This document shows positions 10,101 to 25,548 of a stretch of DNA of 64,000 nucleotides, in pieces. The DNA is taken from the NCBI GenBank assembly GCA_019659125.1, contig JAIFVX010000001.1, positions 182,097-246,096 of the forward strand, read 5' to 3'. Positions within the stretch are counted from its first letter, which is position 1; each line of letters begins with the position of its first letter. Position numbers and translations under genes: made by a program. The DNA is from Candidatus Pacearchaeota archaeon (GTDB lineage: Archaea; Nanobdellota; Nanobdellia; Pacearchaeales; GW2011-AR1). The notes beneath the pieces were generated by a model. It saw only the letters and a program-made list of their open reading frames with translations. It did no database searches and was not told the origin of the DNA.

Positions 10101-11384
10101 ATGATTGATATTAAGCTCATTCGAGAGAATGCTTCTGAAGTAAAAGACAATATCAAGAAAAAAGGCCAGCTTGATAAGATAAAACTGGTCGATGAAATCA
10201 AGAAAAAAGATGAGGAATGGAGAAAGCTTAAGCAAGAGGCAGATACGCTACGAGCAGAGAGGAATTCTATATCGAAAGAAATCAGCGAGAAGAAGAAGGC
10301 TGGAAAGAATGCTGATGCGCTCTTAAAGAAAGCAAAGAAAATACCTGAAGATATCGAGGAAATAGAATCAAAGATGAATCAGGAAGAGCAGAAGATTTCA
10401 GAAATGCTCTCAAAGATACCTAACCTCATGCATCACTCTGTTCCTCATGGAAAGAATAGCGCTGAAAATGTAGAGCTTGAGAAAATAGGAAAACCTAAGA
10501 AATTTGACTTTCCAATTAAGAATCATGCGGAGCTTGGAGAAACGCTCGACATACTTGATTTCGATGCATCTGCAAAAACCTCTGGAAATGGATTCTATTA
10601 CATGCAAGGGGATCTTGCATTGCTCAATCAGGCATTGATTAGGTTTGCGATAGATTCTATGGTTGCAAAGAAGTATGAATACGTTGAAACTCCTCTGATG
10701 GTTCGCAGCGGAGTCATAGACAATGTAACTGATCTCAACGACAAAAAGAACCAGATCTATAAGATTGAGGGAGAAGATGAGTATCTCATTGGAACAAGTG
10801 AACATTCATTGATAGGAAGATATATTGATACTATACTTCCCGAAAGTAAGCTCCCCATAAAGCAGACAAGTTATTCTATGTGTTTCAGGAAAGAGATTGG
10901 AAGCCATGGTATTGATGAGAAAGGATTGTTCAGAACCCATCAGTTCAACAAGATAGAGATGATTACCATCTGCAAGCCTGAAGAGTCTATGAAGCACTAT
11001 GAGGAAATGAAAAGTATTACCGTAGAGATCTTCAAGGCCCTTGGAATCCCCATCCGCGTATTAGCAATATCATCCGGCGATTTGGGAGATCTGAAACACA
11101 TTCAAGTAGATATAGAAGCATGGTCTCCTAGAAAACAAGAGTACTTTGAGGTTGGCTCATGCTCAAATCTTACCGATGCGCAAGCCAGGAAGCTCAAGAT
11201 ACGTGTCGATGGCAGAGGCCAGAGATACACTCCCCATACACTTAACAACACTGCTATCGCAACCTCACGAGCATTAGTGGCCATTATGGAGAACTATCAG
11301 AATAAAGACGGATCAATTGATATCCCCAAGGTCCTTGTGCCTTTCATGCACGGCAAGACCAAGATTGAAAAGAAAAAGAATTAA
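10101..11384 (+). CDS. serS: Seryl-tRNA synthetase
   Basis: Charges tRNA-Ser with serine; two tRNA-Ser genes lie a few kb upstream. The N-terminal residues 1-110 form the long antiparallel coiled coil that reads the serine tRNA long arm. The class II core follows, with motif 2 (MCFRKEIGSHGIDEKGLFRTHQFNKIE) and motif 3 (ALVAIMENYQ preceded by NNTAIATSR). It is the common, bacterial-like form rather than the rare methanogen type. The ATG at 10101 gives MIDIKLIREN, the family's usual start; a CTATATTTAAATAACC box lies upstream. Confidence 0.96.
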   Translation: MIDIKLIRENASEVKDNIKKKGQLDKIKLVDEIKKKDEEWRKLKQEADTLRAERNSISKEISEKKKAGKNADALLKKAKKIPEDIEEIESKMNQEEQKISEMLSKIPNLMHHSVPHGKNSAENVELEKIGKPKKFDFPIKNHAELGETLDILDFDASAKTSGNGFYYMQGDLALLNQALIRFAIDSMVAKKYEYVETPLMVRSGVIDNVTDLNDKKNQIYKIEGEDEYLIGTSEHSLIGRYIDTILPESKLPIKQTSYSMCFRKEIGSHGIDEKGLFRTHQFNKIEMITICKPEESMKHYEEMKSITVEIFKALGIPIRVLAISSGDLGDLKHIQVDIEAWSPRKQEYFEVGSCSNLTDAQARKLKIRVDGRGQRYTPHTLNNTAIATSRALVAIMENYQNKDGSIDIPKVLVPFMHGKTKIEKKKN

Positions 11385-11911
11385 TCTTTAAAGTAAAAAT
11401 TACCTTTATAGTTAGGAATATCTCTCGTTAAATCTCTTTTCTTTACGGCTGATCGGTCAACTGGTTTTCCGCCGATCCATAATGGGAACATATCAATAGG
11501 GAAGCTATCATATTCTTTTGTTATGTCTAGTGCTTCTCCTACATTTCCAGGTCCTTGATAAAACTCAGATCTTCCCCGAGAGTCTTTAATATGTGCTGCA
11601 ACCAAAGTAATACAAGAAGGCTTGCACACTCCTAGTGTCGCGATATCAAGTAAATTCTTACCAAATTTATTGCTAACGCTCATTAAACCTGGGGGATACT
11701 GAGCTCCTTCAGACATAGAGTCTGCTTTACCTTCATAGGCCGCTACTTCATAGATTCTAGCATAGACAGGACATCTCCTGCTTGATCGTTCAAATACAAG
11801 TACTCTTCCTAGTAGATCCTGAGCGACTTCATCAGCATGTCGAGCAAAGAAGTCTCTAGTTATTTTAGTGCTCTTATGGGGAATTTGAAATGATTCCATT
11901 TTATTTACCAT
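11381..11911 (-). CDS. 3-methyladenine DNA glycosylase (AAG/MPG)-fold protein with altered active site
   Basis: The fold is recognisable: DLLGRVLVFE, then ARIYEVAAYEGKADS, and later YQGPGNVGEALDI, which match LG-x-LV, (I)VETEAYxGxxD and the GPGxLxxALGI motif of AAG enzymes. These flip out and excise alkylated purines. By eye, the catalytic Glu in ETEAY aligns with Ala here, and the conserved active-site His just after it aligns with Glu. The Tyr-rich YVYxxYG motif is replaced by LLDIATLG. It may bind DNA without cutting the glycosidic bond. The ATG at 11911 is about 30 bases from the TATA box shared with the SNF2 operon. Length is 176 aa. The stop overlaps serS by 4 bases. Confidence 0.75.
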   Translation of the reverse strand: MVNKMESFQIPHKSTKITRDFFARHADEVAQDLLGRVLVFERSSRRCPVYARIYEVAAYEGKADSMSEGAQYPPGLMSVSNKFGKNLLDIATLGVCKPSCITLVAAHIKDSRGRSEFYQGPGNVGEALDITKEYDSFPIDMFPLWIGGKPVDRSAVKKRDLTRDIPNYKGNFYFKD

Positions 11912-11936
11912 TACAGAGGTACAACTATTCGTAACC

Positions 11937-11944
11937 TTTATAAA
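11937..11944. promoter_or_regulatory. Palindromic TATA box serving divergent genes
   Basis: TTTATAAA is its own reverse complement. It lies about 26 bases before the ATG at 11967 (SNF2 ATPase) and about 30 bases before the ATG at 11911 on the other strand (AAG-like protein). Both distances match the leaderless spacing seen elsewhere in the window. One box may therefore fire in both directions and co-express the two transcripts. Confidence 0.6.
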
Positions 11945-11966
11945 CATTATGGTGGCTCTCTACTAT

Positions 11967-14900
11967 ATGGAAAATAAGCACAAATATAGAAACTTCCAGG
12001 AGTATTGCGTAGAACAGATTAGAGTTGGTAATACCTATGCTTCCCGATTTCTTAAGGATGGAAAAAATGCTCTTGCTCTTGCTTTAGATGAAGGGAGAAA
12101 AAAATTACAGAGATACGAAAGTCAACAGCAGCACGAGCATGCTGGTAAGCTTCGAGGAGCTATAGAAAGAGCAGAAGAGAAAGGAATGATTGATGGAAGT
12201 TTTGAAATGACATATGAGGGTGCCGAGAGAATATACCAAAAAGTAAGAACTATTGTCGAAAAGAAGGGTGCAGAAAGAAACACTGATTATATGAATGTTT
12301 TCGATGCATTTGACCCCATCGCAGACCATGATCTTATAGCAACAGGAATATTTTGCCTGATTCCTGAAGTACGTGAGAAAGTAGGAAATAAGCTTGAGAA
12401 CCTCTATCGAGTTGTTCTAAATGTCGGAGCTGCAAAGAGAAAAGGATACTCTCTTCCTATGAAAGAACGTTCTGAGAAAAAGCAAGAAGACTCTATTATT
12501 TCAGCTTCGCTGGAGAGGCTTATTGCAGCCTTGCCAAAAATAGAAACCTCGGAAGAACAACAGTATCATAAGATGCTGAAAGTTCTTATTGAAAAGAAAA
12601 TTGAGAGAGAGGTATTTCCGCTGTTTCAGAAAGATGCCGGAAATGCGTTTAATTCATTTAATAGAAAAATACGAGAAGAGAAAAACGATAATCTAAGGGA
12701 AGCGTATACGAGATTAAAAGACGTTTATGAAGGATACTCTGCATTTAAAGCAGAAGAGGTTAATCAGGAATTCATAGACCCTGAAACTAAAAGAAAAGGA
12801 GTTCTTCCCTCACTGCACCAAAAAATTGCTATCTATCATTCAGTAAATGAGGAAAAGTTTGGTATTTTTGATGGATGCGGCACAGGAAAGACGGCTATTG
12901 GAGTGCTTACACAACCCCTTGTTGAAAAGAAATTAAAAGAAGAGGGAAAAGAATTTAGGAGAGCAGTAGTGGTATGTCCAAACGCTGGAAAGAAAACATG
13001 GAAGAAAGGGTTAACAGGAAATGATGCCGAACGATATCTTGCTGATCGACAGGATATCGCTGTAATAAACGGTGAGCAGAAGACTCCTGAGTTTCTTGCA
13101 AGTCTTCGCGATAAAAGATGGATTGTAACAAATTACGAGCAACTTACAACAAAAGTTGGTGAAGGAGAGAAGACCTTTGCGGAAGAACTTGCAGGTATGG
13201 GAGTAGATTATGTAATTTTTGATGAATGTCATCATATTAAGGGGTTAAGAACACAAACACCTAATGGTGCGCCTACACAAAGTGCAGCCGCAAGAATACT
13301 AGGACATAATGCACGATTTGTCTCGCTTCTTTCAGGCTCGCCCATCCCAGACAGCCTTAAAGATTACGCCGTGTTATACCATTTGCTCAACCCTCAGATC
13401 TGTCCAGATCCAAATAAGTTCGATGAATTATATCAAAACAACCCTAGAATACTATATACATTCGTAAATGAGAAAACCATTAGAAGAACGTCAGAAGCTA
13501 TTAATGAAGATCTTGATTGGAATGAACTTGAAGAGTTAGTTGAGTTAGATGATGTTCAAAGAACGCTCTACAATCATATTATCGAGTTTAGACCAGGAAA
13601 CTGGATGAATCAGGCACGAAAAGCCCTTCTTGACCCTAGACTCGTTGATCCAGAAGTAATTCAGAGAGCAGGTTTAATAGGAAAAATAGGAGTCGAGAAT
13701 TCGGCTAAATACAAGAGTCTTGAAAACCTATTGGTGAAGCCTGACGGCCCTATCTCTAAACAAGAGAAATTTATTATATTCTCAAGTATGTACAAAGAAG
13801 GTGTAACAAACTCAGACAATGAAGAGTTAAGGAACAGATATGATAAATTGGGTCTTTCTGAAGAGTATACGAGACTGGGACTAAATCAATCCTTAGATCA
13901 GATTCTTAAGAGCAATATAGAAAAGAAGCTAGGAAGAAAGGTCAACATAGGCCTTATCGATGGAGATGTTAAAAATATAGAAGATAGAGAGGCAATAGTA
14001 GATAGGCTTAACCACGATCTTGATGGAATTCTCTGCACTACCGATACAGGAGGAGAAAGTCTTAACTTTACACCTGCAAACCATGCATTCTTCCTTGATG
14101 ATGATTATACGCCAAAGACCAATGAGCAAGCAATAGCGAGACTTGTGAGAAAGGGACAGACAAAAAAAGTCAATATCTGGCACCTGCGTGGTAAAGACAC
14201 TCTCGATGAAAAACTTACCGATTATGTAGAAAAGAAAGCAATCATCATTAAAACAGCTCTTGATGGATATCCCCTTACCAAGGAAGAAAAAGAATTACTC
14301 GAAGATACTCAAGGAAGAAAACTAGGAGATTTGATCAAAAGAAGTGTCGGAGGTATCTCTATCAATGTCCTTGATGCTACAATAGACGCTATTGATGACT
14401 TCGAGTCAAGAAAGAGAAGCAGAGGAAGAGGAGAACAGAGAGCACGAGGAAGCATGGAGTATGAAACAACTGACGCTCAAAGAGTAACCCAATGGATCGG
14501 AAAAGATCCTCTTAATTGCTGGAGTGACCCGCAATTCGTTGAACTCTACATGAATGTGCTCCCTAATCTGTCAGTTCCCGTTATTCATAGAGCAAAAATA
14601 TGCGATCTTATAGGTAGAGCAAAGAAAGGAGAAGTAGATTTCCCAAGGAAGGTACTTTCAGAGGGGTCTGGCCCATCACTTCTCTACAACGCATACCAGG
14701 AGCTAAAAGGAATTGTAAAGGTAAATGGTCACAAGGTTCCAACCATATTTGACAGAGACATCTCACAACTTATGTTGGACAAAGGAAATAACCCTAATAA
14801 AATACTGGGAAATATGACTGGAGAGAATAGCTTAGTTAAAGCATCATCATTTGACATGGTTGATCACGAATCAATCACACTTCTCAGAAATCCCGATGAG

Positions 14901-15419
14901 GTAAAAAACACATTACTAGAAGCAAATAGGGTACTGAAACCAAAGGGTACACTAGAGATTGTACTCAAGAACAAGAGATTCCTTGATAGCTTTTATCCAG
15001 GTCTTGAAAAGCTGGGCTTTGAACTTATTACAGGAAAAGAAGAAGGATTCTCTCTTAGTAAACCTGCATTTAAGAGATTACGAGCAGAGCAGGGAGAGCA
15101 CTTTGCAGAAAGTTACGCATCAAAACTAGCCAATACACGAGTGATTATCGCCCGAAAAGAAGCGGCTCCTGCACAGGTTGATGCAAATGATCTATGGTTT
15201 GGAACCATGGGGTATGAAGAGGAAAAGAAGGAAGACCATCAAGAGAAAGAAGTCATTGCATTACATCCTTCAGAATCACGAAACATCATCATGCCGCGAA
15301 GTAGAAGAAAAGGAGCGAAACCAAGACTTTTACGACAGAATGTAATAGAACCTAACCTTCAATACAATGTAGATTCGCGCGGTGTTGTTCAAGAAATAAA
15401 AAAATTAGGAGGAAAATAA
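11967..15419 (+). CDS. SNF2-family ATPase with C-terminal methyltransferase-like domain
   Basis: Residues about 1-285 form a charged alpha-helical N-terminal region. A SNF2/SF2 ATPase follows: Walker A GCGTGKT near residue 305, DECHH Walker B near 419, SGSP motif III near 457, CTTDTGGESLNF motif V near 695, and QAIARLVRKGQ motif VI near 720. That last motif is typical of SNF2 and not of DEAD helicases. Such ATPases translocate on double-stranded DNA and remodel protein-DNA complexes. Residues about 830-1070 look like a class I methyltransferase fold, with VLSEGSGPS where motif I would be, then SSFDMVDHESITLL and EANRVLKPKGTLEIVL. The motif I glycines are poor, so it may be inactive. It heads an operon with five repeat proteins; an in-frame GGAGG at its 3' end serves the next gene. 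I start at 11967 on TATA spacing. Confidence 0.85.
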   Translation: MENKHKYRNFQEYCVEQIRVGNTYASRFLKDGKNALALALDEGRKKLQRYESQQQHEHAGKLRGAIERAEEKGMIDGSFEMTYEGAERIYQKVRTIVEKKGAERNTDYMNVFDAFDPIADHDLIATGIFCLIPEVREKVGNKLENLYRVVLNVGAAKRKGYSLPMKERSEKKQEDSIISASLERLIAALPKIETSEEQQYHKMLKVLIEKKIEREVFPLFQKDAGNAFNSFNRKIREEKNDNLREAYTRLKDVYEGYSAFKAEEVNQEFIDPETKRKGVLPSLHQKIAIYHSVNEEKFGIFDGCGTGKTAIGVLTQPLVEKKLKEEGKEFRRAVVVCPNAGKKTWKKGLTGNDAERYLADRQDIAVINGEQKTPEFLASLRDKRWIVTNYEQLTTKVGEGEKTFAEELAGMGVDYVIFDECHHIKGLRTQTPNGAPTQSAAARILGHNARFVSLLSGSPIPDSLKDYAVLYHLLNPQICPDPNKFDELYQNNPRILYTFVNEKTIRRTSEAINEDLDWNELEELVELDDVQRTLYNHIIEFRPGNWMNQARKALLDPRLVDPEVIQRAGLIGKIGVENSAKYKSLENLLVKPDGPISKQEKFIIFSSMYKEGVTNSDNEELRNRYDKLGLSEEYTRLGLNQSLDQILKSNIEKKLGRKVNIGLIDGDVKNIEDREAIVDRLNHDLDGILCTTDTGGESLNFTPANHAFFLDDDYTPKTNEQAIARLVRKGQTKKVNIWHLRGKDTLDEKLTDYVEKKAIIIKTALDGYPLTKEEKELLEDTQGRKLGDLIKRSVGGISINVLDATIDAIDDFESRKRSRGRGEQRARGSMEYETTDAQRVTQWIGKDPLNCWSDPQFVELYMNVLPNLSVPVIHRAKICDLIGRAKKGEVDFPRKVLSEGSGPSLLYNAYQELKGIVKVNGHKVPTIFDRDISQLMLDKGNNPNKILGNMTGENSLVKASSFDMVDHESITLLRNPDEVKNTLLEANRVLKPKGTLEIVLKNKRFLDSFYPGLEKLGFELITGKEEGFSLSKPAFKRLRAEQGEHFAESYASKLANTRVIIARKEAAPAQVDANDLWFGTMGYEEEKKEDHQEKEVIALHPSESRNIIMPRSRRKGAKPRLLRQNVIEPNLQYNVDSRGVVQEIKKLGGK

Positions 15420-16763
15420 ATGAAAAATAAACTAGAAGTGTTCCTAGATCAATATAATGAAGGCAAACATGCTGCCGAAGATGAGCTTCTGAGGGAGAAT
15501 AGAAAAAAGGATAGGAAACCTAATGGATATTGGAACTATATGGAGCATGTCATACAAGAGGTTCGAAGAGTTATGTATGAAAACGACTGGACTGAATTAC
15601 CTGATCATAACGACTTAGTAAAAAGAGGATATGGCTATCTATCGGGTGCGATCAAAAAACAGGGAGGATATCACTCACTCAGAAAGAAACTAGGACACAA
15701 AGCTAAAATCGTAACGTCGCGCTATTGGGAAGATTTCAACAGGGTTGAGCGTGAAGCCAAGAAAATTATGAAAAGGCATAATTTTGACATTTTGCCAGGT
15801 TGTCAAACTTTATCAAAACTCGGATATGGTAGTTTTGCAGTTGGAGTTATAAAATATCATGGGGGGCTAAGGATATTGCGTTCAAAACTTGGTCAGGAGC
15901 AGATCGCACGAGAACCCGGAACATGGTCTGATTTACAAAGAACGATTACAGAAACAAAAAAAGTGATGAGGAAATTAGGTACGGATACGTTACCTCCGGC
16001 CAATAAGCTAAATAAAAAAGGATTTGGATACCTAGTAAAAGCAATTACCCGGCATTATGGGGGATTTAGAAAATTCAGAGAAGAGCTCGGAGAAGAGCAG
16101 TTACAAATAGAAAAAGGAACCTGGCTAGATATCAATTACGGAATACAAAAGGCCAAGGAAGTCATGAAGGAAAATCATCTAGACAGTTTGCCCAATTATC
16201 TTAAATTAAAGGAATTGGGGCATAGCGATTTGTCTGCAGCTATTCATAGACATTATGGAGGGTTTAGGAAATTTAGGGAAACATTGGGGCAGGGCCAGAA
16301 GAAGTTAGGAGAAGGTATCCTGAAAGATCAAGGATATGTTATCAAACAATTAGAGGCTATTGCAAGAGAACATCACCTGGAAGTACTTCCTAGCACTTAT
16401 TTTCTAAGAAATCATAGTCATTCTAGTCTTGCAGCAGCAGTCACAAAATATCATGGTGGAATGAGAAAGTTGCGTGCCGATGCAGGGGAACAGCAAGTGA
16501 AGCATGAAGAAGGATATTGGATGGATATTAAGAACGTTGCAAAAGAGGTGCTCGTGATTATGAAGAAGCACGGATTTACAGAACTTCCAAGTCAAAGAAA
16601 GCTCACAGAGTTAGAATATACAGCCATTGCGAGTTGTATAAGTCAACACTGGAGCTTTCCCGAGTTAAGAAAACAGCTTGCTGCTTACCTATCACAAGAG
16701 CCCATCACTCATGCGCTTGAAGGTCTTTTAGAGTCATATGCAGGAGAAAGCCATGGAGAATAG
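15420..16763 (+). CDS. Six-repeat modular protein 1 of the SNF2 operon
   Basis: A 447-residue protein with an N-terminal tag (LEVFLDQYNEG), six tandem repeats of about 66 residues, and a C-terminal tag (LEGLLESYAGE). Each repeat has an aromatic start (GYW, GTW), a helix with an EAK/ETK core, LP about 25 residues in, a GY/GF turn, an A(I/V) helix ending YHGG or HYGG, then RxxLG(Q/E). No enzymatic motif is present. The layout resembles the homing-endonuclease-associated (HNH) repeat, a small helical DNA-binding unit; this is comparison by eye. GGAGG at 15408-15412 lies 7 bases before the ATG. The 3' end overlaps the next gene by 11 bases. Confidence 0.8.
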   Translation: MKNKLEVFLDQYNEGKHAAEDELLRENRKKDRKPNGYWNYMEHVIQEVRRVMYENDWTELPDHNDLVKRGYGYLSGAIKKQGGYHSLRKKLGHKAKIVTSRYWEDFNRVEREAKKIMKRHNFDILPGCQTLSKLGYGSFAVGVIKYHGGLRILRSKLGQEQIAREPGTWSDLQRTITETKKVMRKLGTDTLPPANKLNKKGFGYLVKAITRHYGGFRKFREELGEEQLQIEKGTWLDINYGIQKAKEVMKENHLDSLPNYLKLKELGHSDLSAAIHRHYGGFRKFRETLGQGQKKLGEGILKDQGYVIKQLEAIAREHHLEVLPSTYFLRNHSHSSLAAAVTKYHGGMRKLRADAGEQQVKHEEGYWMDIKNVAKEVLVIMKKHGFTELPSQRKLTELEYTAIASCISQHWSFPELRKQLAAYLSQEPITHALEGLLESYAGESHGE

Positions 16764-19206
16764 AATAGAGACGTTCTTAGAAATATATAACTCTGACGAA
16801 GGCACTGAGAAAGATGAAGTGCTGAAAGAAGAAAGAAGAAAGCAAAGAGAATATTGGAAAAGCTGGGAAAACGTAAGCACTGCCTTACAGAACATTACTA
16901 AGGAACTAGGACATTTTCCAACGCAGAAAGAAATTACACAGTCGCAATATATCGGTTTAATGTATGGGATTTCTCGTTACCATAATAACCTCTATACGGC
17001 AACTCTCAAAATGGGACACACGCCAACGCAGGGAGAACGAGGACACTGGAAAAAGTGGGAGAATGTTGAGAAGGAATTAAAAGGTATGATTGAACAATTA
17101 GGACATTATCCCTCCTATACTGAAATTAGAAAGTTAAAAGGATCAATCACAAGCGCGATTGATAAGCATCACGGAGGGTATAATAATACCAGGGCGAGGA
17201 TGGGTTTTGACCTCTCACGAAGAGAGCCAGGTTATTGGGAGAGTAGTGAAAATGTTGTAAAAGAAGCTAAAAGTGTTATGAAAAAATATGGTTTTGATGA
17301 ATTGCCTGATGCAAACAAACTTACTGAATTGGGAGAGACACAGTTGATCGGAGGCATTTCTTCATATGGGGGATTCAAAAAAGTAAGAAGATTGCTTGGC
17401 GAAGAACAGCGGTATGCAGATGTAGGCACGTGGCATAATCTCGAAAATTGTATTAAAAAGGCACAAGAAATAAAAAGAGAGCTAGGGGTGAAAACTCTTC
17501 CATCGACGAATATTCTTCAGGATCACGGATACGGAGCTTTCGTAGCAGGCATACAAGCACATCACGGAGGCATTGTTGAATTCAGGAAAAAGCTAGGTGA
17601 ACAGCAGCTAAAAAGAGAATCGGGAATATGGAGAAGTCTAGAATATACAATACAAGAAGCAAAGAAATTTCTTGAAGAGAAGGGCTTAGAAGTCCTGCCA
17701 GGACAAAGCACTATACAAAATTCAGGTTACAGTGGACTTGTGGCAGCTATTAATCTCTATCATGGAGGACTAAAAGAGTTTGAACCGAAGTTCTATCAAG
17801 CAATAGGCAAGTCTGTTGACAAGTCTCTTCTTAGACGAAGAGAGAAAGTCGTTAACATCCCGAAAGAAACATTAGAAAGAGAGTATAATCAAGAGAAAAT
17901 GACTCAATCAGAAATTGCTGAAAAACACGATTGTGCTATACCTGCTATAAAGAGATTGATGGACGAGCATGGAATAAAGACAAGAAATACTAGCGAGTAT
18001 CATCGACCCGATGGATTCATCGAGCCTAAGAAGAGTGAATTAAGGCAATGGTATGTAAAAGAGGAAAAAAGCTTGAGGGAGATAGGAGATGAATTAGGCG
18101 TATCCCGAAGAGTCGTACAAGGATTTATGGAAAAATATGATATTCCCATACGATCTAATAGAACGTTTGAAGAATTACTGAAAAAAATTGAAAAATCGGA
18201 GCTTGAGAACTATTACATAGATAAAAGAATGACTCCTGTACAGGTAGCGGATAAACTCGGAGTCAGTGGCCCAACGGTAAAGAAACTGCTTGAATATCAT
18301 GAAATACCCATGCGGAACATCTCACAAGCCCGTCTAAGAAAAGGAGTACAATTACCAACAAAAGAGGAGCTTGTTCGCCTGTATGTTCAAGAGAGAAAGA
18401 ATACGGTTGAAATTGGAGAGATTTTGGGCATATCAAACCCCACTGTGGGGATTCTCTTAAGAAAACACGATATAGAAGTAAGAAACAAAAAGGGAATCTA
18501 TGATAATAAAAAGACAAGAAAAGAGACTATATATGAGCTTCTTACTATTTCTGGTAAAAATCCAGAAAAACTAGTTATACGGGATTTTCAAAATTATCAA
18601 CGTGATGATGGCACTTGTTTTATCGGTCTTTTAGGATGGTATCAGAGAAATTACGAGTGCACCCCGACACAAGCTAAAAATAAGATGTTACAGGAGCTAG
18701 TAGGTTGCACTGCCCTTCATGAACCTAAACGAGCAAAAAGGGTTTCACTTAATGAAGTTGACTCATGGGATAAATTAAAGAAGAAAATTAATGAACTGTT
18801 TAGAGATCATCCTGAGTTAAAAAGAGAGATGCCTGGATCCGCATGGTTAAGGAAAAATGGATACACATTCATAGGAAGAGCTGCACCCTTATATGGAGGT
18901 ATGGCTAGTATTCGAGATAAATTAGGGCAACCTCAAATGAGAGTAGAGAATGGAAAATGGAAGGAATTCAACGCTGTGAAAGCCGAACTTCAAAGAATAA
19001 TTGACACACATGATGAATTGGAAGGTTTTGCTCCATCAGGAAATTGGCTTAATGAGCATGGTTATTCTTATCTTACAAGCGCAATTAAAAGATATCATGG
19101 TCATTATAGTGTATTTGTAGAAAAGTTTGAAAAAGCAAGTGGAATTTCAAAAGAAAGTAATCTTGAAGGTTTACTAGGCAATTATATTGGAGGGAACGAT
19201 GACTGA
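16753..19206 (+). CDS. Modular protein 2: repeats plus four tandem helix-turn-helix units
   Basis: The 817-residue protein begins with tag IETFLEIYNSD and then five of the repeats (residues about 32-365). Four tandem HTH units follow (about 375-575), each about 45-60 residues: EIAEKHDCAIPAIKRLM, EIGDELGVSRRVVQGFM, QVADKLGVSGPTVKKLL and EIGEILGISNPTVGILL, each closed by a GI/DI-x-x-R-(N/S) end. A unique segment (about 580-660), two more repeats of a GFAPSGNWL type, and the C-terminal tag LEGLLGNYIGG follow. HTH units strongly suggest sequence-specific DNA binding. AGGAG at 16742-16746, inside gene 1, precedes the chosen ATG by 6 bases. It overlaps the next gene by 8 bases. Confidence 0.8.
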   Translation: MENRIETFLEIYNSDEGTEKDEVLKEERRKQREYWKSWENVSTALQNITKELGHFPTQKEITQSQYIGLMYGISRYHNNLYTATLKMGHTPTQGERGHWKKWENVEKELKGMIEQLGHYPSYTEIRKLKGSITSAIDKHHGGYNNTRARMGFDLSRREPGYWESSENVVKEAKSVMKKYGFDELPDANKLTELGETQLIGGISSYGGFKKVRRLLGEEQRYADVGTWHNLENCIKKAQEIKRELGVKTLPSTNILQDHGYGAFVAGIQAHHGGIVEFRKKLGEQQLKRESGIWRSLEYTIQEAKKFLEEKGLEVLPGQSTIQNSGYSGLVAAINLYHGGLKEFEPKFYQAIGKSVDKSLLRRREKVVNIPKETLEREYNQEKMTQSEIAEKHDCAIPAIKRLMDEHGIKTRNTSEYHRPDGFIEPKKSELRQWYVKEEKSLREIGDELGVSRRVVQGFMEKYDIPIRSNRTFEELLKKIEKSELENYYIDKRMTPVQVADKLGVSGPTVKKLLEYHEIPMRNISQARLRKGVQLPTKEELVRLYVQERKNTVEIGEILGISNPTVGILLRKHDIEVRNKKGIYDNKKTRKETIYELLTISGKNPEKLVIRDFQNYQRDDGTCFIGLLGWYQRNYECTPTQAKNKMLQELVGCTALHEPKRAKRVSLNEVDSWDKLKKKINELFRDHPELKREMPGSAWLRKNGYTFIGRAAPLYGGMASIRDKLGQPQMRVENGKWKEFNAVKAELQRIIDTHDELEGFAPSGNWLNEHGYSYLTSAIKRYHGHYSVFVEKFEKASGISKESNLEGLLGNYIGGNDD

Positions 19207-19654
19207 GAGAAAACCTCGCGGTTACTGGGAGGATTTTAAGAACGTCAAAGAAGAGCTTAAAAAAGTAATTAGCAAGCTCGGGCATTTTCCCGTTCAAAGA
19301 GAGCTAAGCGAGGTTGGTAATTCATCTATAATAGCGGCTTTAACTAAATATCATGGGGGTTTAAACGCAGGAAGAGAACGAATGGGATATGATTCAACTA
19401 CTAGATCTCACGGATACTGGAAAGACTGGAAAAATTTAGTAAACGAGCTACAGCCGATCTATGAAACGTTAGGAAACTATCCTACAGCGTATAAACTAAG
19501 GAAAATGGGGCATGTTTCTCTGGAAGCAGCCATTCACCAGTATCATGGAGGATCACAGTCGGTGAAAGAAAGATTCTTAGCGGCAATAGGAGAAAAAGAG
19601 ATCACTGTCGAGTCAATCTTAGATGGTTATGTTGGAGGACCACATGCCAGATAG
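19199..19654 (+). CDS. Small two-repeat protein 3 of the SNF2 operon
   Basis: A 151-residue protein that starts MTERKPRGYW without the N-terminal tag. It holds two repeats of the shorter LGHFP/LGNYP subtype (about 63 residues, ending YHGGLNAGRERMGY and YHGGSQSVKERF) and ends with the C-terminal tag VESILDGYVGG. The GGAGGG that encodes the preceding gene's terminal Gly-Gly lies 4 bases before this ATG. It is paralogous to the last gene of the operon (start 21172). Probably a partner or adaptor of the larger repeat proteins. Confidence 0.75.
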   Translation: MTERKPRGYWEDFKNVKEELKKVISKLGHFPVQRELSEVGNSSIIAALTKYHGGLNAGRERMGYDSTTRSHGYWKDWKNLVNELQPIYETLGNYPTAYKLRKMGHVSLEAAIHQYHGGSQSVKERFLAAIGEKEITVESILDGYVGGPHAR

Positions 19655-21179
19655 AATAGAAAATTTACTTGATGCTTATGTAGATGGAAAGAGAGCCAGA
19701 AGAGACTCTGCTCTACAGGATGATAAAACAAGAAAGCCTAATGGCTACTGGAATAATATCAAGAATATAGTAAAAGAAGCTCGTACCTTCAAGAAGAAGC
19801 ACAAACTCAAACAATTGCCTGGAGCAACAACAATACGTGAACTTGGAGGGAACACTTTGGTTGCGGCAATAATGCATCACGTAGGTATGAGAAAATTTAG
19901 AGATACGATGGGGGAAGAACAGCGAGAAGCAGAAAAAGGAGTATGGAAAAACAAAGATTATGCACTTCAAGAAGCCAGACGGATTATGCACGAAAACAAT
20001 CTTACATCTCTCCCTAGCCAGTACACATTAAATCAAATGAAACAGGGAGGGTTGGTGAGAGCAATCCAAATCTATCATGGAGGGTTTAGAAAGTTCAGAG
20101 ATGATCTAGGGCAATCCCAGGTCTTAAGGAAAAGAGGATTATGGAATAATATAAGATATGTGCTAAAAGAAGCCCGTGTTATAAAAGAGAGACACGGATT
20201 TAAGCAGCTACCTGGAGGAGAAACTCTTGCTAAACTCGGGTATTCCGCATTTAACAATGCGGTCTGGAAATATCACGGAGGTATGAATAATATAAGAAAG
20301 AAACTAGATGAAGAGTTGCCAAGAACAGATTCTTCTTTATTAAAAGATGAGACATATATTCTAAAACAAGCGAGAAAGATAATGAGAGATGAAGGATATG
20401 AGACCTTACCAGGTCACGACTCTCTCTATAAAAAAGGATATGCAAGTTTTACCAATGCTGTGAATAGACATCATGGAGGAATCGCAGCAATACGAAAGAA
20501 GCTTGGACAAGAAATTAACAGAAAGTCCAACTCGTATTGGAAAAAATGGAGGAATGTTCATAATGCATTAAAAGAAATAGTAAATGAATTAGGGCATTTT
20601 CCTAAACAAAAGGAATTACAAAAAAGAGAAAGTTCAATAGCTGCGGCTATAACCTTACATCATGGAGGGATGAATACAGTGAGAGAGAAAATGGGATATG
20701 AAAGGACAAAATTAGATAATGGATTCTATAAAGACTCAAAAAACATTGAGCAAGATATGCAAAAAATAATTAAGACTCACACAGAATTGCAAGGAACTCT
20801 TCCTTCTGCTCACTGGCTGCAAAAAAACGGCTACGCCTCCTTATCTAATGGCATTCGCCAAATCTACGGTAGCTATGGCGAGTATAGAAAACAGAAAGGA
20901 TTGCCTGAAAGCTTGCAAGTTGAACTAGGAAGATGGAAAGACCTTGAATTTACATTACAACAGGCGCAAGAATTCATGGAGGAAGAGGGGTTAACAGAGT
21001 TGCCAGGAAGCTGGACTATGAATAGGAAAGGATATAGCTCATTAGGCGCGGCTATTACAAAATATCATGGTGGAATAAAGAAATTCAGAGAAAGACTATA
21101 CCTCCGTATTGGAAAAAGCCCTCCCTCCTCACAACTAGAATCAGTGTTATTGGAATATGCTGGAGGGAACGATGACTAG
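19644..21179 (+). CDS. Seven-repeat modular protein 4 of the SNF2 operon
   Basis: The 511-residue protein has an N-terminal tag (IENLLDAYVDG), seven repeats and a C-terminal tag (LESVLLEYAGG). Repeats 1-4 and 7 are of the standard LP type, repeat 5 is the short LGHFP type, and repeat 6 is the GTLPSAHWLQKNGY type, so all three subtypes occur in one protein. There is no HTH array or catalytic motif. GGAGG at 19634-19638 inside the previous gene acts as the likely ribosome binding site for the ATG at 19644. The final 16 bases before and over the next start are the same as at the gene 2/gene 3 junction. Confidence 0.8.
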   Translation: MPDRIENLLDAYVDGKRARRDSALQDDKTRKPNGYWNNIKNIVKEARTFKKKHKLKQLPGATTIRELGGNTLVAAIMHHVGMRKFRDTMGEEQREAEKGVWKNKDYALQEARRIMHENNLTSLPSQYTLNQMKQGGLVRAIQIYHGGFRKFRDDLGQSQVLRKRGLWNNIRYVLKEARVIKERHGFKQLPGGETLAKLGYSAFNNAVWKYHGGMNNIRKKLDEELPRTDSSLLKDETYILKQARKIMRDEGYETLPGHDSLYKKGYASFTNAVNRHHGGIAAIRKKLGQEINRKSNSYWKKWRNVHNALKEIVNELGHFPKQKELQKRESSIAAAITLHHGGMNTVREKMGYERTKLDNGFYKDSKNIEQDMQKIIKTHTELQGTLPSAHWLQKNGYASLSNGIRQIYGSYGEYRKQKGLPESLQVELGRWKDLEFTLQQAQEFMEEEGLTELPGSWTMNRKGYSSLGAAITKYHGGIKKFRERLYLRIGKSPPSSQLESVLLEYAGGNDD

Positions 21180-21627
21180 GAGACCTAGAGGATATTATCA
21201 AGATTTTCAGAACATTGAGCGAGAGCTAAAAGAAATTGCGGCTCATGTAGGATATTATCCAAGATATGTAGATATAAGAGAACTAGGAAGGACAAGTCTG
21301 GCAGCCGCTATAGATAAGTATTATGGTGGATTAAATAAAGTTAGAAAGAGATTGAAATACAAATCTCATACTACGAGACCAAGGGGATTTTGGAATAAAA
21401 AAGGAAATGTCATCAGAGAAGCCAAATTTATTATAATTAATCATAATCTGTCGGAGTTACCCAACGAAGCCACACTGCGCAAGATGGGATATGGTGGTTT
21501 TACATATGCAGTATATAAGATGTATGGAGGTATTCCTGCTTTGAGAAAAGAACTTGGACAGACTTCTAGAATAGATACAAAAAGCAAATTAACCTCTTTA
21601 TTGGAGCAATATGCAGGATCTAGTTAG
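21172..21627 (+). CDS. Small two-repeat protein 5, last gene of the SNF2 operon
   Basis: A 151-residue protein beginning MTRRPRGYY, with one short-type repeat (VGYYP, YYGGLNKVRKRLKY) and one standard repeat (LSELP, MYGGIPALRKELGQ), ending in the tag LTSLLEQYAGSS. The same two-repeat design follows gene 2, suggesting that a large-plus-small pair was duplicated. No gene follows on this strand, and here the tag's GG codons are not GGAGG. The tag residues L-LL-x-x-Y-A-G persist anyway, so they are conserved for the protein and not only for the ribosome site. The stop overlaps the convergent flavoprotein gene by 4 bases. Confidence 0.75.
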   Translation: MTRRPRGYYQDFQNIERELKEIAAHVGYYPRYVDIRELGRTSLAAAIDKYYGGLNKVRKRLKYKSHTTRPRGFWNKKGNVIREAKFIIINHNLSELPNEATLRKMGYGGFTYAVYKMYGGIPALRKELGQTSRIDTKSKLTSLLEQYAGSS

Positions 21628-23199: not shown

Positions 23200-23613
23200 A
23201 TGCTAGCTAGCAGAAAAAGAAGTTTTCTAATTATCTATTTTATTGTCATATTATTCTTAAGTTATGTAATAATTGTAGGGTCAAGCCAGATATTTAGTCC
23301 ATCTTCATTAAGCAAAATATCAAGTTTTAAAGGAGCCCTTTCTATGATCCTATTACTCTTAGCACTATTTTTACCTATATTATTATCGATGTATTTAGGA
23401 TGGGGAAAAGGTTTACTAATTGGAAGTATAATAGGAATTTTATATAATGGTATATTTACATTCCTTCTTCTCTCTGATGTGTTCAATGCCTGTACTGACG
23501 GATGTGGTTTACTCAATCTTATTCTTTTCATTCCAAGTATAGTCATATTTTCTATCTCTTTAATTATTTTGGGAAAATTTTGGTCTAGAAACAGGTCAAC
23601 CAGAAAGCTGTAG
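23200..23613 (+). CDS. Four-helix membrane protein of unknown function, 137 aa
   Basis: I recognise no family. Four hydrophobic segments are visible: FLIIYFIVILFLSYVIIVG, ALSMILLLLALFLPILLSM, LLIGSIIGILYNGIFTFLLL and LLNLILFIPSIVIFSISLII. A CTDGCG motif lies in the third loop and the tail is basic. A TATTTAAATG box precedes the ATG. Its end overlaps the convergent helicase gene by 18 bases. Confidence 0.65.
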   Translation: MLASRKRSFLIIYFIVILFLSYVIIVGSSQIFSPSSLSKISSFKGALSMILLLLALFLPILLSMYLGWGKGLLIGSIIGILYNGIFTFLLLSDVFNACTDGCGLLNLILFIPSIVIFSISLIILGKFWSRNRSTRKL

Positions 23614-25548
23614 ATCCCTTACAGCATCAAGAACCCTTGAATCAGGAGAAAGCACATACACATGATCATCCTTTGATCTCAATGCCCTATAAATTCTCTG
23701 TAAGAATTCCCGTCTAGCCTTATCCTTATAGAATTCCCAGAAATACTCTCCATGTGTCTTCTGAAGAATCTTCCAGAATGTCCCCTGAATATTAGGGTTG
23801 GGGTATTTAGTAAAGATGACTGAATTGCATACATCACCAGGAAAGTCTACTCCTCGAGAGCACTTTGTTGTGAACAGTGAATCCTGAAGTTTTGCCTTGA
23901 AGAGCGAAATAAGCCTGCCCTCCCTGTCATCTCCCTGTAATTGCTTTAACTTTTCCCGAGACATAAGATTAAACAGTTCTTTTTCCTGTATTTCTTGTTC
24001 TGTAGGCAAGTCTTCAAAGGCATTTACATGAATAAGCACCGGCTTCTTTGATTTACTCATGCATGCAGAAAGGGATTTCAGATAATCACTACGTGAATGC
24101 TTTCCAGAAGAGAAGTTAGCATATTTACAGTCAAACTCTTTTCCAGTCCGTAGAATCTCAATCGTTCCCTGTCCAAGAGTCTCAGCCTCAACAATCTTGA
24201 AGTCATCTAAACCAAAGATATCATGTAACACCTCTGGAGAGTGGAGGGTCCCTGACATCAGCACGAGTACCTTATTCTTATCTACAATCTCTTTGAACCG
24301 CTTTGATAAATTGGTAGTAACTATATTCACATACAAGTCCTTTTCATCTCGCCTATAGGTAAGATACGTTTCATCAAAGAAATCCTTGAACATGTAGGCT
24401 GCCTCAAGTGCCTTGTTGGCATAATTTGTCTCATCAAGCACAACTTCAGCTCCAATATCAGAATTCTTGAGCAATAATTCAAAAATCTTCTGCACCTTAG
24501 TCTCACTAATGGGAAAAATCTGATTCTCATCAACACCTAACGCCTGCTTATTTCGCTCTTCAAGCTTAATGAGATCAAGAATGGTCTGAACAGCTTCTTG
24601 CGCTTCTACCTTCTCAGGAAGGATCAGCTTCAGACCTCCCATCAATCGTGTGAGATTAACCTCTGATTGAGTTGAAAAATTATCCAAAAACTCATCAGCC
24701 TCATCAATGATCTCAACATCTGTTGCTGGTTTTCTGTTTAAAGCAACTTCAATCTTGTATTTGGCAGCGTTGAAAATCAAGACATCAGCATCAAGGTATG
24801 CCTGATACTGATCGTAATAAGAACATCCTTCTTTTCGGTGATAAAAAACAAATTCCCTTTCTTCAAGTCCTTTATAGCGTTTCTTCCGTGCCCCTTTCAA
24901 GGGAAGTTCAATTTCTGCAGGGGCAATAGGGCTCCAATAGGGATTGGCAGGAGCAACTGAAATCCTCCTGAGGTTTTTTATTTCAGGTTCCATTTTGCTC
25001 ATGATATAGGGATTGTTTTTATAATACTCCCGTAGTAATTCAGAGTTCTTTTCATGAAATGAAATGTTTTCAGGAAGAAGAGGATCAGCGCATGAGATTC
25101 CCGGTTTTATGATTGAATCGTGATTTTCCCTTCCCGTAAGCATGGCAATCTTCATCTTCCGTGCTCCTTTGATGACATATTTCCTGCTCGTATAATCCTC
25201 CTCATACTGCTTCTGCAGGCCCTTGACCGGAACGACTATAGATGCCCTACCAAGTTTTCGGGCGATATTAAGCGCTATAGCGGACTTTCCTGTTCCACAG
25301 ACACCGTGAATGAAAATAATCTTCGTCCCATCTTTAGCAAGGTTAACAACTTCATTCACCACGTCCTCTTGGGTCTTTCCATTAGAAAAGAGAAGAGGAG
25401 AAAGTAGCCTTCCATGCTCATGAAGACTCCAGGCAGCATCATCTACCTGTTGGAGAGTCTCCTCACGAGGTGATGAAGGAAATACATCGAGCTTCAGCTC
25501 GTCCACACTTATCAGTTTCCCTTGAGAATCAAATTTCATCCTCTCCAT
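23596..25548 (-). CDS. XPD/DinG-like superfamily 2 helicase
   Basis: A DNA helicase-like ATPase of 650 aa. Walker A is HGVCGTGKSA (about residue 82) and the Walker B DEAD box is IIDEADEFLDNF (about residue 280). LVLMSGTLHSPEVL is motif III/IV, and QRIYRALRSKDDH is motif VI near the C-terminus, the XPD/Rad3/DinG arrangement. XPD has four Cys between motif I and motif II that hold an iron-sulfur cluster; only two Cys (GISC, EGCSYY) are present here, so the cluster is probably lost. Likely role in DNA repair or RNA-DNA unwinding. A CTTTTAAAC box lies upstream of the ATG. Confidence 0.82.
   Translation of the reverse strand: MERMKFDSQGKLISVDELKLDVFPSSPREETLQQVDDAAWSLHEHGRLLSPLLFSNGKTQEDVVNEVVNLAKDGTKIIFIHGVCGTGKSAIALNIARKLGRASIVVPVKGLQKQYEEDYTSRKYVIKGARKMKIAMLTGRENHDSIIKPGISCADPLLPENISFHEKNSELLREYYKNNPYIMSKMEPEIKNLRRISVAPANPYWSPIAPAEIELPLKGARKKRYKGLEEREFVFYHRKEGCSYYDQYQAYLDADVLIFNAAKYKIEVALNRKPATDVEIIDEADEFLDNFSTQSEVNLTRLMGGLKLILPEKVEAQEAVQTILDLIKLEERNKQALGVDENQIFPISETKVQKIFELLLKNSDIGAEVVLDETNYANKALEAAYMFKDFFDETYLTYRRDEKDLYVNIVTTNLSKRFKEIVDKNKVLVLMSGTLHSPEVLHDIFGLDDFKIVEAETLGQGTIEILRTGKEFDCKYANFSSGKHSRSDYLKSLSACMSKSKKPVLIHVNAFEDLPTEQEIQEKELFNLMSREKLKQLQGDDREGRLISLFKAKLQDSLFTTKCSRGVDFPGDVCNSVIFTKYPNPNIQGTFWKILQKTHGEYFWEFYKDKARREFLQRIYRALRSKDDHVYVLSPDSRVLDAVRDLQLSG

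Follow-up and report, generated by a model that had tools for sequence, protein, structure and literature searches.

Helical tags at the ends of proteins are already known from microcompartments and megasynthases. Among the latter, PKS/NRPS docking domains pair a C-terminus with an N-terminus in order. These domains are short regions located at the N- and C-termini of the subunits (PMC9113145), and microcompartment encapsulation peptides are described as short helical domains carried on a disordered linker by several proteins of one system (PMC12339742). Here we characterize an archaeal operon in which a tag of about 10 residues recurs on the proteins encoded downstream of an SNF2-family ATPase. 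Such an SNF2-tag system is apparently undescribed: literature searches found no description of it, and PADLOC, NCBIfam and Pfam name none of the proteins scanned as belonging to such a system.

The operon lies in a window of 64,000 nucleotides, by which we mean the whole stretch of DNA that was analysed, from a Candidatus Pacearchaeota archaeon (assembly GCA_019659125.1, called G000 below). Its features, in window coordinates, are the following, N-tag and C-tag denoting the tag at either terminus.

11381 to 11947, reverse strand: MPG/AAG homologue (PF02245, 8.1e-12), divergent neighbour of the SNF2 gene, with Ala at the catalytic Glu column.
11949 to 15419, forward strand: SNF2-family ATPase, upstream of g1, PF00176 and PF00271 above cut-off, no tag at the C-terminus.
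15420 to 16763, forward strand: g1, 447 aa, six repeats of ~65 aa, N- and C-tag.
15432 to 15464, forward strand: N-tag of g1, LEVFLDQYNEG.
16716 to 16745, forward strand: C-tag of g1, LEGLLESYAG, with embedded Shine-Dalgarno.
16753 to 19206, forward strand: g2, 817 aa, seven repeats flanking a helix-turn-helix array, N- and C-tag.
16765 to 16797, forward strand: N-tag of g2, IETFLEIYNSD.
19162 to 19194, forward strand: C-tag of g2, LEGLLGNYIGG.
19199 to 19654, forward strand: g3, 151 aa, two repeats, C-tag only.
19607 to 19639, forward strand: C-tag of g3, VESILDGYVGG, a low-confidence predicted separate helix (residues 137-145).
19644 to 21179, forward strand: g4, 511 aa, seven repeats, N- and C-tag.
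19656 to 19688, forward strand: N-tag of g4, IENLLDAYVDG.
21135 to 21167, forward strand: C-tag of g4, LESVLLEYAGG.
21172 to 21627, forward strand: g5, 151 aa, two repeats, C-tag only, final gene of the run.
21589 to 21618, forward strand: C-tag of g5, LTSLLEQYAG, without Shine-Dalgarno.

All eight peptides quoted in the initial annotation, three at N-termini and five at C-termini of g1-g5, were found in the window, and its statement that N-tags are confined to g1, g2 and g4 holds, g3 and g5 having none. The tags share a core of the form hydrophobic-x-x-hydrophobic-hydrophobic-x-x-Tyr/Leu, and the pattern [LIV][ET]x[FLIV]LxxY has eight matches among the 70 ATG-started window ORFs of at least 100 aa (20,637 residues), all of which are the tags themselves. 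A back-translated C-tag pattern, which demands Glu and Gly at positions 2 and 10, respectively, and therefore cannot match g5 or the N-tags, gave five matches across the 0.81-Mb assembly (85.6% complete); the C-tags of g1-g4 account for four of them, and the remaining one is out of frame of every listed ORF of at least 60 aa. Within these tests, the tags are confined to the g1-g5 operon.

The repeat of ~65 residues is present in 24 units in g1-g5, and in 37 when proteins of G038, G007 and G031 are added. Its closest Pfam family is PF18780, the homing endonuclease associated repeat (HNH_repeat), to which the likeness is distant: g2 passes the cut-off (29.6 versus 26 bits), g3 and g4 stay below it, g1 and g5 give no match, and no HNH nuclease family is listed for g1-g5. 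The resemblance to PF18780 and to helix-turn-helix proteins suggests that the repeat proteins bind DNA. The AlphaFold2 model of g3 (mean pLDDT 85.6, pTM 0.57) shows four helices per repeat and predicts the tag as its separate helix with a pLDDT of ~54-59, and that of g4 (mean pLDDT 76.2, pTM 0.34) predicts tag helices at residues 2-13 and 495-505 with a pLDDT of ~50-60. Fold searches with the g3 model gave weak results, the best E being 1.1 with Foldseek, and VIA-align pointing to a TetR DNA-binding region (Z 4.9, rmsd 4.0, 59 residues). The best match of the repeat profile to PDB sequences, a C-type lectin (E 1.1e-5), is made of six stretches of which none passes alone and was taken as chance; the same was done for weak PADLOC matches (mad1, 0.00016, on g2; Cas3, 0.0001, on g4), which likewise have no stretch passing alone.

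The same operon is present in other Woesearchaeota and Pacearchaeota. Searches for the SNF2 protein gave 3 of 200 genomes in the order at E 1e-40 and 5 of 378 in the class at E 1e-50, the source genome included in each, and 2 of 241 and 2 of 103 genomes in two further orders, the source genome not being among them; the order and class samples overlap, and many of these finds are the same genomes. Seven SNF2 loci came from a search of a genome contig collection (Candidatus Woesearchaeota, Pacearchaeota, uncultured archaeon). Scans of the genome and viral contig collections with the g4 protein returned no relative, and the SNF2 alignment had 10 distant matches in the viral contigs. The operon is rare and patchy. 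The G537 locus holds nothing more than SNF2, one tagged protein and an MPG homologue, the SNF2 gene of G038 lies beyond the contig, on which only an ORF resembling its end is present, and the last genes of G215 are on a second contig, whose end repeats that of the first. In G065, a 214-residue protein encoded between SNF2 and the first tagged gene (L029:13095-13736) is a candidate 2-oxoglutarate oxygenase (DIOX_N below cut-off, E 0.057), and two small opposite-strand genes between two tagged genes (L029:6328-6969) look by eye like a PIN-type toxin-antitoxin pair. The SI075 accessory proteins (L086:6444-11995) contain, besides the first repeat, a second one of ~50 residues (NYAGMSRSEV...FY...GF.DEVLP). 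In the window itself, a DinG-like helicase (PADLOC typeIV_DinG, E 5e-38) is encoded near the operon, at 23596-25548.

Across seven loci, 27 accessory proteins have a C-terminus that can be read, and 24 of them carry the C-tag (G000 5/5, G065 7/8, G331 3/3, G215 2/3, SI075 6/6, G537 1/1, G038 0/1). The three exceptions are G065 h, which is a last gene, G215 b2 and G038 b, in which a tag-like stretch stands ahead of a further domain. This count leaves aside the 214-residue G065 protein, which is untagged, and the downstream G537 MPG homologue (neither has the repeat or a helix-turn-helix), the G007 repeat protein, which runs off its contig, SI039_bin18 (L085), which as far as it goes has the same proteins as SI075, and a tagged G064 protein at a contig edge, where no SNF2 gene was found. 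N-tags, scored by inspection, occur on 11 of 29 N-termini (G000 3/5, G065 5/8, G215 3/3, other genomes 0), so that SI075 (six proteins), G331 (three) and G537 (one) have C-tags and no N-tags. In g4 and its G065 relative (protein c, 53% identical), both tags are at the same places. A tag also occurs internally, between repeats, in G065 b and G215 c, which looks like the fusion of two tagged genes. Homologues from other species lacking the tags would, according to the initial annotation, have refuted its proposal; relatives in other genera and families carry them.

The tag goes with the operon and not with the repeat, because it is absent from repeat proteins outside and present on a repeat-less protein of G331. 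The latter (G331b, 257 aa) has no match to the repeat profile and no Pfam family above cut-off, and its body is unlike those of the other tagged proteins (best E 0.24); the tagged protein of G537 (279 aa) is helix-turn-helix-like, also with no repeat match. Conversely, even a generous form of the motif is absent from all six repeat proteins outside such operons (G031, G066, G094, G188, G291 and G406, those of G291 and G406 being examined in this terminal-motif check only). The generous motif matches 4 of 65 background window ORFs and was fitted to the tagged set, which makes its contrast with the controls descriptive. No SNF2 relative was found at threshold in G066, G291 and G406 nor, among the matches listed, in G031, G094 and G188. 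Weak repeat matches in G198 (L064) gave no ORF passing the test. Two related possibilities would tie the tag to the repeat: it could be a shortened version of the helix SLxxAIxKYHGG, or a structural element capping the array. By position matrix, the tag matches the repeat best at register 38 when Gly-Gly is counted, and the predicted tag helix may pack on the repeats. That register is not special once Gly-Gly is removed; tags on repeat-less G331b and G537a and their absence from repeat arrays outside the operon also speak against this origin, which we regard as very improbable. Descent of the tag from a degenerate helix of the repeat was dropped, the likeness resting on Gly-Gly.

The wording of the tag differs among genomes: LExLLxxYxGG in G000, LExFLxEYVGG in G065, SLLEQYIGG in G331, LDILKQIVED in G215, MEVLKEILEELGD in SI075, LDDLIGDYL in G537 and IECLLEKYI in G064. 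Within genomes, the mean identity of the core tag is 0.48 (G000), 0.72 (G065), 0.85 (G331), 1.00 (G215) and 0.90 (SI075), against 0.28, 0.30, 0.35, 0.52 and 0.59, respectively, for the 66 residues that precede it, and the tag is the more identical part in 49 of 50 within-genome pairs. Between genomes, tag identity falls to a mean of 0.27 (250 pairs). The tags of G000 and G065 are as alike (0.46) as those within G000, so that a genome-specific wording is clear only between more distant genomes. Position 4 is Phe in 7/7 C-tags of G065 and in 0/5 of G000, despite the 53% identity of g4 and G065 c. For the 12 C-tags of these two genomes, columns 1, 2, 5 and 8 have identities of 0.83, 0.83, 1.0 and 1.0, compared with 0.03-0.32 for the preceding 24 columns.

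Recent tandem gene duplication could by itself make the tags alike, and in SI075 the data lean that way: identity reaches 59% in the stretches preceding the tags, and codons are shared slightly above chance (110 of 152 identical tag residues versus 90.6, p 0.017), which fits recent duplication in that genome. In G000 and G065, by contrast, bodies are 28-30% identical against 48-72% for the tags, the body of G331b is unlike the others, and codons are not shared above chance. In this comparison, from which the Shine-Dalgarno codon was left out and for which chance was obtained by simulation, identical tag residues share codons in 22 of 43 cases in G000 (simulated 16.8, p 0.10; p 0.010 with the Shine-Dalgarno codon included) and in 72 of 137 cases in G065 (simulated 74.9, p 0.62). 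Outside SI075, duplication is already unlikely, and as a general explanation we consider it improbable. Since codon sharing in G000 and G065 does not exceed chance, the tag core is conserved there as protein, and DNA-level conservation or gene conversion finds no support from codon sharing in these two genomes.

The nucleotide context of the C-tags raises the further question of whether they are a by-product of translational coupling, the codons of the gene junctions having to hold a Shine-Dalgarno. Shine-Dalgarno-like sites occupy or directly follow the Gly codons in g1-g4 and in 6 of the 7 tagged G065 genes, and the tail is often overlapped by a start codon. The tag core, however, lies upstream of the site, the pattern used finds no site in g5, G331b, G331c, the G215 tags, G537 and G064, relatives use other residues (LKEILEELGD), and N-tags and internal tags exist. 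The embedded Shine-Dalgarno thus largely explains the trailing Gly-Gly, and for the tag core coupling is already refuted and scarcely credible. The initial annotation had argued from the last gene that the tag is not only a by-product of this kind. Its conclusion is borne out by the tags on some last genes, at N-termini, at internal sites, on repeat-less proteins and in other genera and families; its example stands in part, g5 keeping the core without a Shine-Dalgarno while Gly-Gly has become Gly-Ser. Two last genes are without one or both glycines (g5 AGSS, G331c IEDS).

The SNF2 protein contains the SNF2 and helicase C domains above cut-off (PF00176 42.6 versus 24.9 bits, PF00271 39.4 versus 23.5), its alignment shows the motor motifs GCGTGKT and DECH, and it is 36-52% identical to the proteins of four other loci. 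Its C-terminal part gives a weak methyltransferase match (PF08241) below cut-off. It has its SNF2 motor in common with the defence helicases ZorD, DrmD, BrxHI and DpdE (PADLOC, E down to 9.4e-14), the best stretches falling mostly in the helicase part (residues ~420-860), and no other component of those systems was found among the seven proteins scanned. No tag is present at the C-termini of the SNF2 and MPG homologues. At the SNF2 C-terminus (window 15372-15416; L024, L029, L081, L082), a variable stretch is followed by a short conserved end motif unlike the tag, with G-x-V invariant in 5/5, and this may be a second docking motif. The N-terminus of the G215 SNF2 protein (L081:5230 onward) reads MAKELIETILDRYVASGK, which conforms to the tag pattern seen in G000 and not to the one of its own genome. 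In G629 (L139:552-4613), an SNF2 relative has accessory-repeat matches in its own motor region (residues 337-401 and 526-583), which suggests a direct fusion of motor and reader.

The second recurrent neighbour is the MPG homologue, which in four loci is without the catalytic Glu and adjoins the SNF2 gene or is one gene away. Besides the copy of the window, these are:

L081, 4711 to 5208: operon MPG homologue without catalytic Glu.
L082, 3604 to 4137: operon MPG homologue without catalytic Glu.
L088, 6567 to 7037: operon MPG homologue without catalytic Glu.

In the alignment, the position that is Gln in 1EWN, which we take to be the catalytic Glu of MPG, reads A/A/S/A in the four operon copies, in contrast to active methylpurine-DNA glycosylase. 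The 30 best-scoring non-operon copies of the class sample have Glu in 29 cases and a gap in the 30th, and an ordinary MPG copy is also encoded elsewhere in G000 and G331. No MPG homologue was found in the retrieved stretches of SI075 and G629, and the contigs of G065 and G007 end upstream at or inside the SNF2 gene. Judging from these residues, the operon copies are probably base-binding pseudoenzymes and may leave the bound base uncut.

The likely meaning of these observations is a tag that the accessory proteins share for docking or self-association, and docking is the reading that we favour, with some confidence: the tag would be an assembly motif through which the accessory proteins of one genome present a near-identical helix to one surface, most likely that of SNF2. 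The ATPase is the likeliest receptor because it is untagged at its C-terminus and because the G537 locus holds just SNF2, one tagged protein and an MPG homologue. Mechanistically, a helix of ~10 residues, separated by a linker and placed at the C-terminus (in some genomes also at the N-terminus) of accessory proteins of DNA-binding appearance, would act as a clip; by means of these clips the SNF2 ATPase would bring together repeat or helix-turn-helix proteins in varying combinations, and we infer that the resulting complex acts on DNA. Of the two arrangements proposed in the initial annotation, hub docking fits best. Head-to-tail docking as a general rule is unlikely because three genomes (SI075, G331 and G537) tag only C-termini; moreover, N-tags are missing from g3 and g5, and the tags at the two ends resemble each other instead of being complementary. 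The same features set the tags apart from PKS/NRPS docking domains, since tag ends that are alike (G000, G065, G215) or confined to C-termini form no complementary pairs. With encapsulation peptides the tags may share the plan of a short, here predicted, helix on a linker, at the C- or N-terminus; the carriers differ, looking DNA-binding and not metabolic.

The main rival to docking on SNF2 is that the tags bind each other, a self-associating helix (as a small bundle) clustering the accessory proteins without a separate receptor. N- and C-tags are indeed of the same form and on most partners, encapsulation peptides are described as forming trimeric bundles (PMC12339742), and in each of the five genomes tested the amphipathic moment is larger than the average of its shuffles, exceeding the 90th percentile only in SI075 and G215, being moderate in G000 and weak in G331 (0.27 versus 0.25 shuffled). 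Against this, the G537 locus has a single tagged protein, for which only homo-association would be possible, and shell genes (PF00936) are found in none of five genomes (completeness 85-100%). We hold self-association to be possible and rather doubtful.

Taking docking on SNF2 as the preferred reading, we tentatively picture, as a possibility on the doubtful side, a modular machine for DNA surveillance or remodelling in DPANN archaea, in which an SNF2 motor would be joined by exchangeable, tag-clipped and expanding repeat and helix-turn-helix proteins that read DNA and by a dead alkyl-base glycosylase as sensor, the coevolution of tag and receptor in each lineage keeping components from different lineages from mixing. 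Should the tag prove to be a docking helix, it would mark the members of one complex by sequence alone, even when their bodies are unrelated, and would define an undescribed SNF2-centred system in uncultured archaea. If this is true, these operons would also provide a natural set of lineage-specific tag-receptor pairs and, with the tag, a handle for deletion and swap tests.
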